Positions 33,218 to 37,650 of a stretch of DNA of 48,081 nucleotides are shown one piece after another. Made by a program: the position numbers and the translations under genes. The notes below the pieces were generated by a model that was not told the DNA's origin, did no database searches, and saw only the letters and a list, made by a program, of their open reading frames with translations. The DNA is taken from NCBI GenBank assembly GCA_022340465.1, contig JAJDNW010000074.1, forward strand, positions 1-48,081, given 5' to 3'. Numbering within the stretch: the first letter of the stretch is position 1; every line of letters begins with the position of its first letter. The stretch is from Deltaproteobacteria bacterium (GTDB lineage Bacteria > Desulfobacterota > Desulfobacteria > Desulfobacterales > B30-G6).

Positions 33218-33883
33218 ATGATCGTGACCATAGACGGTCCCGCAGGCGCCGGCAAAACAACTGTCAGCAGGATTCTTGCACGGCGCCTGGGATACCGCTA
33301 TGTGGACACCGGAGCGCTTTACCGGGGCATTGCATTTGCCGCCACAAATGCCGGGATAGACCCGGCGGACGACAAAGGGCTGGAAAAGATGCTCGCCGGC
33401 ATGAAAATCGGTTTCACGGTGCGGGAGGGAAGCACCCGGCTGATGCTGAATGAAAAAGACATCACCGATAGGATCAGAACACCGCGGATCGCCATGGCCG
33501 CATCGGCTGTATCGGCAAGGCCGGTTGTGAGAAAGTTTCTGCTGGACATCCAGCGTGAACTGGGAAAAGAAAAAAAGGCCGTGTTCGAGGGACGTGACAT
33601 GGGTACGGTGGTCTTCCCCCAGGCCGACGTCAAGTTTTATCTGGACGCTTCGGTTCAGATGAGGGCGGCGAGACGTTTCAGGGAATTCGAGGGAGAAAGC
33701 GGCCAGAGTATGGAGGCGGTGGAAAACGACATCCGGCGTAGAGACGAAAACGACAGCAACCGGTCCCTAGCCCCGCTACGCAAGGCTGACGACGCCATCG
33801 CCATCGATTCCACCGACATGACCATCGATCGCGTGGTGGAAGCGATGTACCGCCATGTGTCGAAGCTGTCGGGGGGTGATTGA
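33218..33883 (+). CDS. cmk: Cytidylate kinase
   Basis: A 221-aa (d)CMP kinase. P-loop 'TIDGPAGAGKTTVSRILARR' is at the start, 'YVDTGALYRGIAFAA' binds the NMP, and 'FEGRDMGTVVFPQADVKFYL' and 'RRDENDSNRSLAPLRKADDA' are family stretches. A GTG at 33209 lies inside the AAAGAGG binding site, so the ATG at 33218 with an 8-nt gap is chosen. The cmk-rpsA order is widespread in bacteria. Confidence 0.95.
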   Translation: MIVTIDGPAGAGKTTVSRILARRLGYRYVDTGALYRGIAFAATNAGIDPADDKGLEKMLAGMKIGFTVREGSTRLMLNEKDITDRIRTPRIAMAASAVSARPVVRKFLLDIQRELGKEKKAVFEGRDMGTVVFPQADVKFYLDASVQMRAARRFREFEGESGQSMEAVENDIRRRDENDSNRSLAPLRKADDAIAIDSTDMTIDRVVEAMYRHVSKLSGGD

Positions 33884-33981
33884 GGGCTTTTAGGGACAGA
33901 AAGCAGGTTCTCAAGCCTGGCGGGTCAGGTTCCCTGCATCGGTGTCGAATCCGAAAATCGTTCAATTTAGTAAATTATAGC

Positions 33982-34010
33982 TTGAATTATGTTCAATGGA
34001 CTGTTATCAT
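33982..34010 (+). promoter_or_regulatory. Sigma-70-like promoter of rpsA
   Basis: TTGAAT (33982-33987), 17-bp spacer, TATCAT (34005-34010). RNA would start near 34017, leaving a ~53-nt leader, AT-rich, with AAGGGGG before a T-run and the ATG at 34070. Confidence 0.6.
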
Positions 34011-34069
34011 TCCTAGGTTAAGGTATGTATTAGAAGAGTTCAAAATCGGCTAAGGGGGTATTTTTTTTA

Positions 34070-35872
34070 ATGGAAGAATTTGTGGAAAACGACTCTACCA
34101 AGGAAGTCATGAATGAAGAGCCTGCCGAGGTATCACAGGATGCGCAGGGCGTGGAAAAGGATGCGGGGGCATCACTTGAAAGCCTGGACGAGGACCAGAG
34201 CATGGAAGAGATGATGGACATATATGAGGAGAGCTTTAAAAGGTTCGCCGAGGGCGAAGTCGTCATCGGAAAAATCATATCTGTCGATAAGGATCATGTT
34301 CTCGTCGATATCGGATACAAATCCGAAGGGCAGATAAACATTCATGAATTCAAGGACGAGCATGGAGACATAAAAGCCGGGGTGGGCGATCCGGTAGAAG
34401 TTATGGTGGAGTGGTGGGACGACGAAAACGAAGTCGTCATGCTTTCCAAGGAAAAAGCAGCCAAGGTCAAGGTGTGGGAAGACATCAAGAAAACCCATGA
34501 TGCCGATGGAACTGTCGAGGGCGTCATCACGAATCGGGTCAAGGGGGGCTTTTCCGTCGACATCGGTGTGCAGGCTTTTCTGCCCGGCTCCCAGGCGGAT
34601 CTCAGACCCATCCGTAATCTTGACGACATGGTCGGCAACACCTATGAATTCAAGATACTCAAGTACAACCGCAAAAGAAGTAACATCGTTCTGTCCCGAA
34701 GGGTCATCCTGGAAAAAGAGCGCGAGGAGAAACGCGCCGCTACGCTTGCCTCCATTCAAGAAGGCAGCGTCGTGGACGGGATCATCAAGAACATCACCGA
34801 GTACGGTGTGTTCGTCGACCTGGGGGGCGTGGACGGTCTGCTGCACATTACCGATATCAGCTGGGGGCGCGTGAAACATCCTTCCGAGATGTTTTCCATC
34901 GGCGATGAGATCAAGGTCAAGGTTCTCAATCTCGATCTGGAAAAGGAGCGTGTTTCCCTCGGTATGAAACAACTCACCGAGGATCCCTGGCTTTCGGCCG
35001 CCGAACACTACCCGGTGGGCGCCCGCGTCACCGGAAGGGTGGTCAGCCTCACGGACTACGGCGCATTCGTCGAATTGGAAGAGGGGATCGAAGGGCTGAT
35101 ACACGTATCGGAGATGTCCTGGACGCGTAAGGTCCGCCATCCTTCGAAGCTGGTTTCCGCCGGGGAATCGATCGACGCCGTCGTTCTGGACATCAAGCCT
35201 GACAACCGCCGCATCTCTCTTGGTATGAAACAGGTGGTCCCCAATCCGTGGGACGTCATCAGCGAGAAATATCCGGTGGGCACGACCATCGAAGGTAAAA
35301 TCAAGAACATCACCGATTTTGGACTGTTTATCGGCATTGACGAAGGCATAGACGGACTCGTTCACATATCCGACATTTCCTGGACGAAGCGCATCAAGCA
35401 TCCCTCCGAGCTTTATAAAAAAGGCGATGTGATCCAGGCGATCGTTCTGGAAATCGACAAGGATAACGAGCGGTTTTCACTCGGCATCAAGCAGCTGCAG
35501 GCCGATCCGTGGGAGACGGTCGGCGAGCGGTATGAAGTCGGCAAAGAGATCACCGGAACCGTCACCAACGTCACCGATTTCGGGATTTTCATCGAACTCG
35601 AGGAAGGCATCGAAGGACTGGTTCACGTATCGGAAATCAGCAAGGAAAAAATCAAAACGCCTGTTGGGATGTTCAACATCGGCGATGTGATTACCTCCAG
35701 GGTGATGAACATCAACAGTGACGAAAGAAGAATCGGCCTTTCCATCAAGCGCATGGAGATCGAGGATGACCAGGAGCTGCTGACGGAATACGTCAACAAC
35801 ATGGGACCGGCCACCTCTTCATTCGGTGAAATCCTTCGGGAAAATCTACAGGAAAAACTGAACGACGAATAA
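34070..35872 (+). CDS. rpsA: 30S ribosomal protein S1
   Basis: A 600-aa S1 with six S1 (OB-fold) repeats starting near residues 62, 146, 232, 318, 404 and 490. Repeats 3-6 carry the canonical 'GxVxxITDFGxFVxLxxGxxGLxHxSxxSW' pattern, and repeats 1-2 are the ribosome-binding pair. About 55 acidic residues lead the first repeat, longer than in E. coli S1 (557 aa). It brings structured or leaderless messages to the 30S subunit. It has its own promoter and terminator and is expected to be highly expressed. Confidence 0.97.
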   Translation: MEEFVENDSTKEVMNEEPAEVSQDAQGVEKDAGASLESLDEDQSMEEMMDIYEESFKRFAEGEVVIGKIISVDKDHVLVDIGYKSEGQINIHEFKDEHGDIKAGVGDPVEVMVEWWDDENEVVMLSKEKAAKVKVWEDIKKTHDADGTVEGVITNRVKGGFSVDIGVQAFLPGSQADLRPIRNLDDMVGNTYEFKILKYNRKRSNIVLSRRVILEKEREEKRAATLASIQEGSVVDGIIKNITEYGVFVDLGGVDGLLHITDISWGRVKHPSEMFSIGDEIKVKVLNLDLEKERVSLGMKQLTEDPWLSAAEHYPVGARVTGRVVSLTDYGAFVELEEGIEGLIHVSEMSWTRKVRHPSKLVSAGESIDAVVLDIKPDNRRISLGMKQVVPNPWDVISEKYPVGTTIEGKIKNITDFGLFIGIDEGIDGLVHISDISWTKRIKHPSELYKKGDVIQAIVLEIDKDNERFSLGIKQLQADPWETVGERYEVGKEITGTVTNVTDFGIFIELEEGIEGLVHVSEISKEKIKTPVGMFNIGDVITSRVMNINSDERRIGLSIKRMEIEDDQELLTEYVNNMGPATSSFGEILRENLQEKLNDE

Positions 35873-35923
35873 CATCGCCTTGGGGCAATGTTATGTGACG
35901 CGGCTGCGCCGCTATGAATAAAA

Positions 35924-35957
35924 GAGCTCCGGCGGCGACACCCGCCGGAGCTCTTTT
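35924..35957 (+). terminator. Strong terminator after rpsA that contains the sppA ribosome binding site
   Basis: Twelve-bp stem GAGCTCCGGCGG (35924-35935) / CCGCCGGAGCTC (35942-35953) with a 6-nt loop, then TTTT. The sppA ATG begins at 35961, 3 nt past the T-run, and the only good binding site, GGAG at 35947-35950, lies in the 3' arm. Confidence 0.9.
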
Positions 35958-35960
35958 GTT

Positions 35961-36875
35961 ATGTTCACCAGAAGACATCCCTACCTGTTTTTTTTGATGA
36001 TATGCTGCACCATGTTGAGTGCGGCGGTCATCATTGTATCCTTCCTGGTGGTAAAAGGTTTGGAAAAGACCGATTTTTCAGATCTCATCGTCGAGAACGA
36101 AGGCGGCCAGGTCGGTGTCGTGGAAATAAAAGGGGTTATCGCCGATTCCGCCGAAACCATCCGCTTGATCAAACGGTTCCGCGAGGATGACGCCATCAGG
36201 GCCATCGTGCTGCGGGTTGAATCCCCCGGAGGGGTCGTGGGGCCTTCGCAGGAGATCTATCGCGAGATCGAAAAAACGGTCCTCGTGAAGAAAGTGATTG
36301 CCTCCATGGGATCGGTGGCCGCTTCCGGAGGATACTACGTATCCGCCGCCGCTGACGGTATCATCGCCAACCCCGGTACGATTACGGGAAGCATCGGGGT
36401 TATCATGGGTTACACCAATTTCGAAGGCTTGCTCGATAAAATCGGCCTTACCCCGGTGGTCATCAAAAGCGGCGAATTCAAGGACATGGGGTCTCCCACC
36501 CGCAAGATGACTCCCCAGGAAAGGAAAACCCTGCAATACTTCGTCGATCAGACCCACCGGCAATTCGTAGCGGCGATCGCCAAGGGGCGTGACATGGAAC
36601 TGTCCGCGGTGGAGAAACTGGCCGATGGACGCATATACACCGGTGAGGAAGCCCTGAAACAGGGCCTCATAGATCGCCTGGGCAACCTGGAAGACGCTAT
36701 CGAGTGGGCGGGAAGACTGGCCGGGGTCGAAGGAAAGATATCCGCCGTCTACAAACGAGAAGAGAAGTTCTCCTTTTTGAAATACCTCTCTGAATCCGTT
36801 CTCAACGACCTTATCTCAAAAATCGCGGGAAACGGCCTGCAGGGGGGCTACATTTACAGGCCCGGCGGCGAATAA
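35961..36875 (+). CDS. sppA: Signal peptide peptidase SppA, short form
   Basis: A 304-aa S49 family membrane protease. An N-terminal membrane helix ('LFFLMICCTMLSAAVIIVSFL' in part) is followed by the ClpP-like domain. The Ser-Lys dyad is Ser122 in 'SVAASGGYYVS' and Lys174 in 'KSGEFKDMGSPTRK'; the spacing of 52 equals that in Bacillus SppA. It degrades cleaved signal peptides and other membrane-bound peptides. The N-terminus 'MFTRRHPYLFFL' is typical for the short family, which supports the ATG at 35961, even though this start lies directly after the rpsA terminator. Confidence 0.93.
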   Translation: MFTRRHPYLFFLMICCTMLSAAVIIVSFLVVKGLEKTDFSDLIVENEGGQVGVVEIKGVIADSAETIRLIKRFREDDAIRAIVLRVESPGGVVGPSQEIYREIEKTVLVKKVIASMGSVAASGGYYVSAAADGIIANPGTITGSIGVIMGYTNFEGLLDKIGLTPVVIKSGEFKDMGSPTRKMTPQERKTLQYFVDQTHRQFVAAIAKGRDMELSAVEKLADGRIYTGEEALKQGLIDRLGNLEDAIEWAGRLAGVEGKISAVYKREEKFSFLKYLSESVLNDLISKIAGNGLQGGYIYRPGGE

Positions 36876-36893
36876 TTCAGTAACTGCGGGCCG

Positions 36894-36972
36894 AATAACC
36901 AATTATCAATATCCAATTTTCAATAATCAAGTTTGCCGTCGGCTGGATATTGATCATTCGTTATTGGTTATT
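36894..36972. repeat. Long imperfect inverted repeat between convergent sppA and yrdC
   Basis: Outer arms AATAACCAAT (36894-36903) / ATTGGTTATT (36963-36972) and inner arms ATCAATATCCA (36905-36915) / TGGATATTGAT (36944-36954), all perfect. AT-rich with no T-tail. It probably folds as one long hairpin in both transcripts and could act as a two-way terminator or stability element. Confidence 0.65.
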
Positions 36973-37041
36973 GGAAATTCGAATGTTCAGCCAGAAAAGA
37001 GAAAAGATGCAGGTGCATTACCCAGCTTGATTTGAAGTGTA

Positions 37042-37650
37042 CTAGTAGAAGACACTCACATCCCCCAATCCCTCCCGCAGCACTTCCGGTTCGTCCATGA
37101 TCAGCGAAATCACGCTCGAGGGGCTGCCCGGTACCGGCCCGCCGTCGATCACCAAATCCAGCTGGTTACCGAGATGATCCTGAATCAGGGAAGGGTCGTG
37201 CAGGATGCCGTGTTCGGGAAGACTCGCACTGGTGGAAAGGATGGGATTGCCGAGCTGTTGAATGAGCGCAATGCATATCCGGTTGTCGGGGACACGAATG
37301 CCGGCGGTTTTACGCTTGGTCAGCATCATTTTGGGGACCATTTTGGATCCCTCCAGGATAAAGGTGTACGGCCCGGGCAAAAGACGCTTCATGGTCCGGT
37401 ATGCATAATTCGAAACCTTGGCGTAGCGACTGATATTTTTCAATCCCGAACAGATAAAACTGAAGGGCTTGTTCTTGTTGCGCTTTTTTATCCGGTAAAT
37501 TTTTTCGATGGCCTTTTTATTCATGATGTCGCAGCCGATGCCGTAATAGGTGTCGGTCGGGTAGGTGATGATGCCGCCCTGCTTGAGAACTTCCGCCACG
37601 TTGCGGATGAGTCTTTCTTGCGGATTTATGGGATTGATGTTGATCAGCAT
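37042..37650 (-). CDS. L-threonylcarbamoyladenylate synthase (Sua5/YciO/YrdC family)
   Basis: About 202 aa, YrdC-like domain only. 'KQGGIITYPTDTYYGIGCD' holds the Lys and Thr of the nucleotide pocket, 'IKKRNKNKPFSFIC' the KR-x-KP site and 'LLPGPYTFIL' the central loop; 'ILSTSASLPEHG' is near the end. True TsaC makes threonylcarbamoyl-AMP for the t6A base of tRNA. The YciO branch looks alike and has little of this activity, so the symbol is left open. ATG at 37650 is used; longer readings add unrelated sequence. Confidence 0.85.
   Translation of the reverse strand: MLININPINPQERLIRNVAEVLKQGGIITYPTDTYYGIGCDIMNKKAIEKIYRIKKRNKNKPFSFICSGLKNISRYAKVSNYAYRTMKRLLPGPYTFILEGSKMVPKMMLTKRKTAGIRVPDNRICIALIQQLGNPILSTSASLPEHGILHDPSLIQDHLGNQLDLVIDGGPVPGSPSSVISLIMDEPEVLREGLGDVSVFY

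Follow-up and report, generated by a model that had tools for sequence, protein, structure and literature searches.

Operon attenuators of the intrinsic-terminator type combine a GC-rich stem with a U-tract, and can occupy the gap between the stop codon of a ribosomal protein gene and the co-directional gene that follows. In E. coli, terminators more than about 27-30 nt from a stop codon are described as maximally efficient, ribosomes no longer hindering them (PMC4824070, in its treatment of this spacing). Hairpins that sequester a ribosome binding site, among them translational riboswitch platforms, hold a Shine-Dalgarno (SD)-like word in a paired state and flank the start codon with a stable stem. 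Structured start regions can also depend on ribosomal protein S1: in the E. coli examples as set out in two accounts, S1 on the 30S subunit melts the rpsO pseudoknot (PMC3858243) and binds the tisB standby site (PMC7708055).

The gap between rpsA and sppA in the genome studied here (G000) can be set beside each of these systems. It lies in a 48,081-nt stretch of DNA (the window) from a 4.39-Mb assembly of 162 contigs; the relatives used are Desulfobacterales metagenome genomes, including its two congeners, G001 and G002. The 88-nt gap contains, from 5' to 3', a hairpin at the rpsA stop codon, the invariant word GCGGCTGCGCCGC and a 19-bp hairpin (Table 1). With attenuators the locus shares the GC-rich stem, the U-tract and the placement between a ribosomal protein gene and a co-directional gene; with sequestering hairpins it shares the paired SD-like word and a start codon flanked by a stable stem; and with rpsO and tisB it shares a structured start region, here adjoining the S1 gene itself. 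Between cmk and rpsA there is a promoter-like word (TTGAAT-17-TATCAT, with TG before the -10; positions 33982-34010), which suggests from its sequence that rpsA may have its own promoter, the number of such hits being not above that in shuffled DNA.

Table 1. Features of the rpsA-sppA region, in window positions
Feature	Position	Strand	Evidence
rpsA, 30S ribosomal protein S1 (600 aa)	34070..35872	+	ORF; NCBIfam NF004952, 840 bits vs cut-off 524
Stop-codon-proximal hairpin, 10 bp with one mismatch, 4-nt loop; first half of dispersed element	35869..35894	+	
GCGGCTGCGCCGC, invariant second half of dispersed element	35900..35912	+	31 exact genome copies
rpsA intrinsic-terminator hairpin, 19 bp, loop 35936-35941, GC-rich core 35924-35953	35917..35960	+	
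GGAG in terminator 3' arm, 10 nt before sppA ATG	35947..35950	+	
U-tract TTTTGTT, also outer A-U rich part of stem	35954..35960	+	
-10-like TATGTT, TG (35957-35958) before it	35960..35965	+	4/6 matches; -35 4/6 at 19 nt
sppA, signal peptide peptidase, N-terminus MFTRRHPYLFF	35961..36875	+	TIGR00706, 245 bits vs cut-off 155
In-frame ATG, alternative sppA start of the sequence-only reading; rejected	35997..35999	+	

A sequence-only reading of this DNA had placed the sppA start 3 nt after the T-run of the rpsA terminator, and had located the only GGAG in range in the 3' arm of a 12-bp stem. Both descriptions are borne out: the last T of the TTTT is at 35957, leaving 3 nt to the ATG, and the GGAG falls within the stem core. 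In the predicted fold, 35917-35935 pairs with 35942-35960, with an energy of -25.8 kcal/mol for the 12-bp core and -33.4 kcal/mol for the whole hairpin, and the 121-nt region is more stable than all of 200 shuffles (z -6.58). As expected of an intrinsic terminator, the stem-loop is stable and GC-rich and a U-tract (TTTTGTTA, 6 T of 8) directly follows the GC core. The first base of the hairpin lies 45 nt past the rpsA stop, farther than the 27-30 nt over which ribosomes hinder a terminator in E. coli. The hairpin occurs once in the genome.

The placement of this terminator is unusual within its own genome. In a 448-kb sample of G000 (loci L077-L096 plus the window), where 354 ORFs were predicted by greedy choice of the longest frame rather than by a gene finder, sppA is the only ORF whose start is abutted by a strong hairpin with a U-tract. 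Unlike the usual attenuator terminator, the one before sppA touches the next start codon, an arrangement seen for 1/354 sampled ORFs. The sample contains 23 terminator-like hairpins outside genes, counting both strands, and a co-directional start follows within 100 nt in two cases: sppA, 7 nt from the GC core, and another at 68 nt. Classical U-tract terminators are scarce in this sample as a whole (23 vs 354 predicted ORFs). SD-like words were found in the 3' arms of 2 of the 23, both being the rpsA-sppA hairpin read on its two strands; since such words are rare in the sampled terminator arms, the GGAG here may not be pure chance.

The start codon of sppA can be fixed by comparison. There is no in-frame start codon upstream of 35961 in the ORF, and an MFxRRHP-type N-terminus begins at an ATG in 106 of the 110 sppA loci examined, which were taken from genomes with a match (209 of 291) and from another set of 58 (L122, L130, L138 and L146 fail the motif and were dropped before counting, leaving 106 orthologs). 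Relative to G002, the first 12 codons carry 3 synonymous and no non-synonymous changes, and the whole gene has a dN of 0.144 and a dS of 1.79 (dN/dS about 0.1). Judged from these substitutions, sppA is under purifying selection and is read from 35961. Use of the ATG at 35997, which the sequence-only reading had offered as the case against a hidden start, would involve RNA begun near 35972 via an extended -10 at 35957-35965. This is barely credible: TGTTATGTT and a weak -35 are present, but the N-terminal motif is kept across the order, the first 12 codons have changed only synonymously and the sequence has no SD closely before 35997. The ATG at 35997 is not the start, since the N-terminus read from 35961 (MFxRRHPYLFF) shows both conservation and purifying selection. 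TATGTT at 35960-35965 is the sole promoter-like word near the start, and was missed by the promoter scan; RNA from it would begin near 35972, inside sppA.

On read-through RNA, opening the region from -15 to +13 around the sppA start is predicted to cost 27.3 kcal/mol. This is the highest value among the 106 orthologs (next 16.9, median 7.0 kcal/mol) and the second highest among 334 sampled genes (median 9.4 kcal/mol); the two congeners have predicted costs of 9.2 and 6.0 kcal/mol. By computation, then, the earlier proposal that read-through RNA would have a blocked start is upheld, the SD-like word and start codon being predicted to be inaccessible in the ground state, as in sequestering hairpins. 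The sampled gene above sppA, L085, has its start codon paired within a GC-rich hairpin with no U-tract, and its start call may be wrong. The sample shows a modest SD signal (-6 kcal/mol or lower at 119/334 first ATGs vs 68/334 with shuffled upstream sequence), which was scored, as promoters were, with a general anti-SD sequence and general consensus words rather than ones taken from this genome. Only one dominant stem was recovered by the search for alternative folds, in both the MFE and the centroid structure, and Rfam gave no match at gathering score across 33800-37400, with two sub-threshold hits only. In contrast to translational riboswitch platforms, no aptamer, competing fold or layout conservation was found at sppA.

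The predicted block would be relieved if the RNA had a different 5' end: with an end at 35936-35945, the opening cost of 27.3 kcal/mol drops to 8.1-8.9 kcal/mol, as for ordinary genes. Such a start could be freed by cutting, either by RNase III acting on the long perfect stem or by another nuclease that removes the 5' arm, or RNA could begin inside the stem, as the sequence-only reading had also proposed. This would account for continued selection on sppA. A promoter inside the stem is rejected, however, as the stem contains no -10-like hexamer and the scan finds no promoter there, and taken together the cutting or internal-start alternative appears unlikely. We consider it rather improbable that the stem is a lineage-specific double lock, ending rpsA transcription and burying the sppA start so that the stem must be cut (e.g., by RNase III) or otherwise opened for SppA to be made; if true, SppA synthesis in this species would reflect RNA processing. 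Should the block have its predicted strength, the purifying selection seen on sppA calls for a way past it, and none was found.

Comparison with the congeners bears on the identity of the GGAG. Both have a terminator in the equivalent place with GGAG also in its 3' arm, ending 60 nt (G001) and 73 nt (G002) before the sppA ATG. The GGAG therefore belongs to the terminator, and its assignment as the sppA ribosome binding site in the sequence-only reading is not supported. Moreover, the SD energy is weaker than -4 kcal/mol in 56 of the 106 orthologs, which have no clear SD, so a fixed SD is not a conserved feature of sppA.

The abutting arrangement does not hold in relatives. Terminators were scored with one hairpin finder that gives only the best hairpin per gap, so weaker hairpins against the start may have escaped it. 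On this basis, 1 of 106 orthologs (this genome) has its best-scoring terminator 10 nt or less from the sppA ATG, the orthologs being from related species and non-independent. None of 38 further loci has a terminator this close, the nearest ending at 16 nt. Sequestering hairpins are expected to be kept in relatives with the same gene pair, and this one is not; on this comparison, the abutting layout is not a conserved regulatory device. The nearest analogues are L034, L154 and L171, with 12-14 nt between the end of the best hairpin and the sppA ATG; the predicted opening cost at L034 is low (5.7 kcal/mol).

The gene order itself is general. rpsA lies directly upstream of sppA in 102/106 orthologs, with a gap of 35 nt or less in 22/102, and this order together with the short gaps makes co-transcription the simplest ancestral state and the terminator an attenuator. 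The same counts bear on the suggestion of feedback by S1, for which the sequence-only reading relied on the adjacency of the two genes only. Under such a scheme, the hairpin would be a regulated lock on translation that free S1, or 30S subunits bearing S1, could open, and sppA output would report the S1 level. The upstream gene does encode S1, and the actions of S1 at rpsO and tisB offer models, but the structures differ in kind: in experiments described in PMC3858243, mRNAs examined with S1 have their SD free of pairing, and the predicted tisB pseudoknot, at about -9.5 kcal/mol by the figure given in PMC7708055, is far less stable than the sppA stem at -33.4 kcal/mol. In addition, no other genome was found to have the abutting hairpin, 105 of 106 orthologs lacking it despite the general rpsA-sppA order, and no alternative fold was found for the gap. 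With no sign of S1 involvement at sppA, we regard an S1 switch as very unlikely.

We think it likely that the hairpin is an ordinary rpsA terminator or attenuator that was placed against sppA by lineage-specific loss of a spacer, lowering sppA expression. The hairpin, the start codon, purifying selection on sppA and the absence of the layout in relatives were computed here; the steps that connect them are predictions. As RNA polymerase leaves rpsA, most transcripts would end at the hairpin, which would attenuate transcription from rpsA into sppA, its conserved partner. A low level of sppA expression would remain, most simply through polymerase read-through. The spacer between terminator and start, present in both congeners, would have gone missing in this lineage, so that the terminator 3' arm occupies the ribosome landing site. 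Read-through RNA may then be poorly translated as the stem refolds over that site, adding a second, translational brake. The loss was presumably a chance event and no selected switch. Alternatively, the congeners could have acquired the spacer, with no loss here. The regulatory claim for the hairpin is a weak one. More broadly, loss of a short spacer could turn a terminator into a brake on translation of the next gene, and the two congeners with the spacer and the one genome without it provide a natural comparison.

An assembly fault could also produce the layout, if a spacer of the congener type had been dropped at the inverted repeat during assembly. Perfect inverted repeats are difficult for short-read assembly, the assembly is in 162 contigs and the layout is seen in this genome only. 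On the other hand, the contig is 48 kb long with both flanking genes intact, and the terminator stem differs throughout from the congener stems, which indicates that the gap region evolves fast anyway. We judge an assembly fault to be rather improbable.

The dispersed element beside the terminator may matter more than the hairpin, as it looks like a feature of gene 3' ends in Desulfobacterales with no Rfam match. At 35869-35912 it runs from a gene stop codon through a hairpin whose sequence varies and a spacer of about 5 nt to the invariant GCGGCTGCGCCGC, usually followed by T. The exact 13-mer has 31 copies in G000 (e.g., at L048, L049, L051, L053, L058, L062 and L064), and the reversed word has none. 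A stem of at least 8 bp ends 3-9 nt before the 13-mer in 14 of 30 distinct copies, and all 14 differ in their 5' arms; 100 shuffles gave 1.58 such copies on average and never more than 5. In 10 of the 30, a long open frame has its stop codon 26-29 nt upstream of the 13-mer. Downstream of rpsA in G001 and G002, the 13-mer is retained in position, with a hairpin of different sequence. From these sequence patterns, it is possibly an undescribed 3'-end element.

No Rfam match was obtained for ten loci bearing the element at E values up to 0.5, and the literature on the 13-mer yielded only an unrelated tick transcriptome paper. REP elements of the GTAG/CGTC-tagged kind carry one of these tags at one palindrome end (PMC3733652); the bases before the 13-mer are, by eye, mostly AAC or GAC, and this assignment was rejected. 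Also set aside was a transposase link, as nothing ties the Y1_Tnp genes of the genome (3 matches) to the element. In an alignment of 17 chosen copies, the hairpins are not in one register. The 13-mer has at least one match in 58/146 genomes, including other families of the order; it is also present in G001, G002, G085 and G113, and several of the copies read in G052, G033, G073 and G017 lie in a different context. At L053 (G000:C30:16029-16267), three 13-mers recur at 113-nt spacing within a near-identical tandem repeat.
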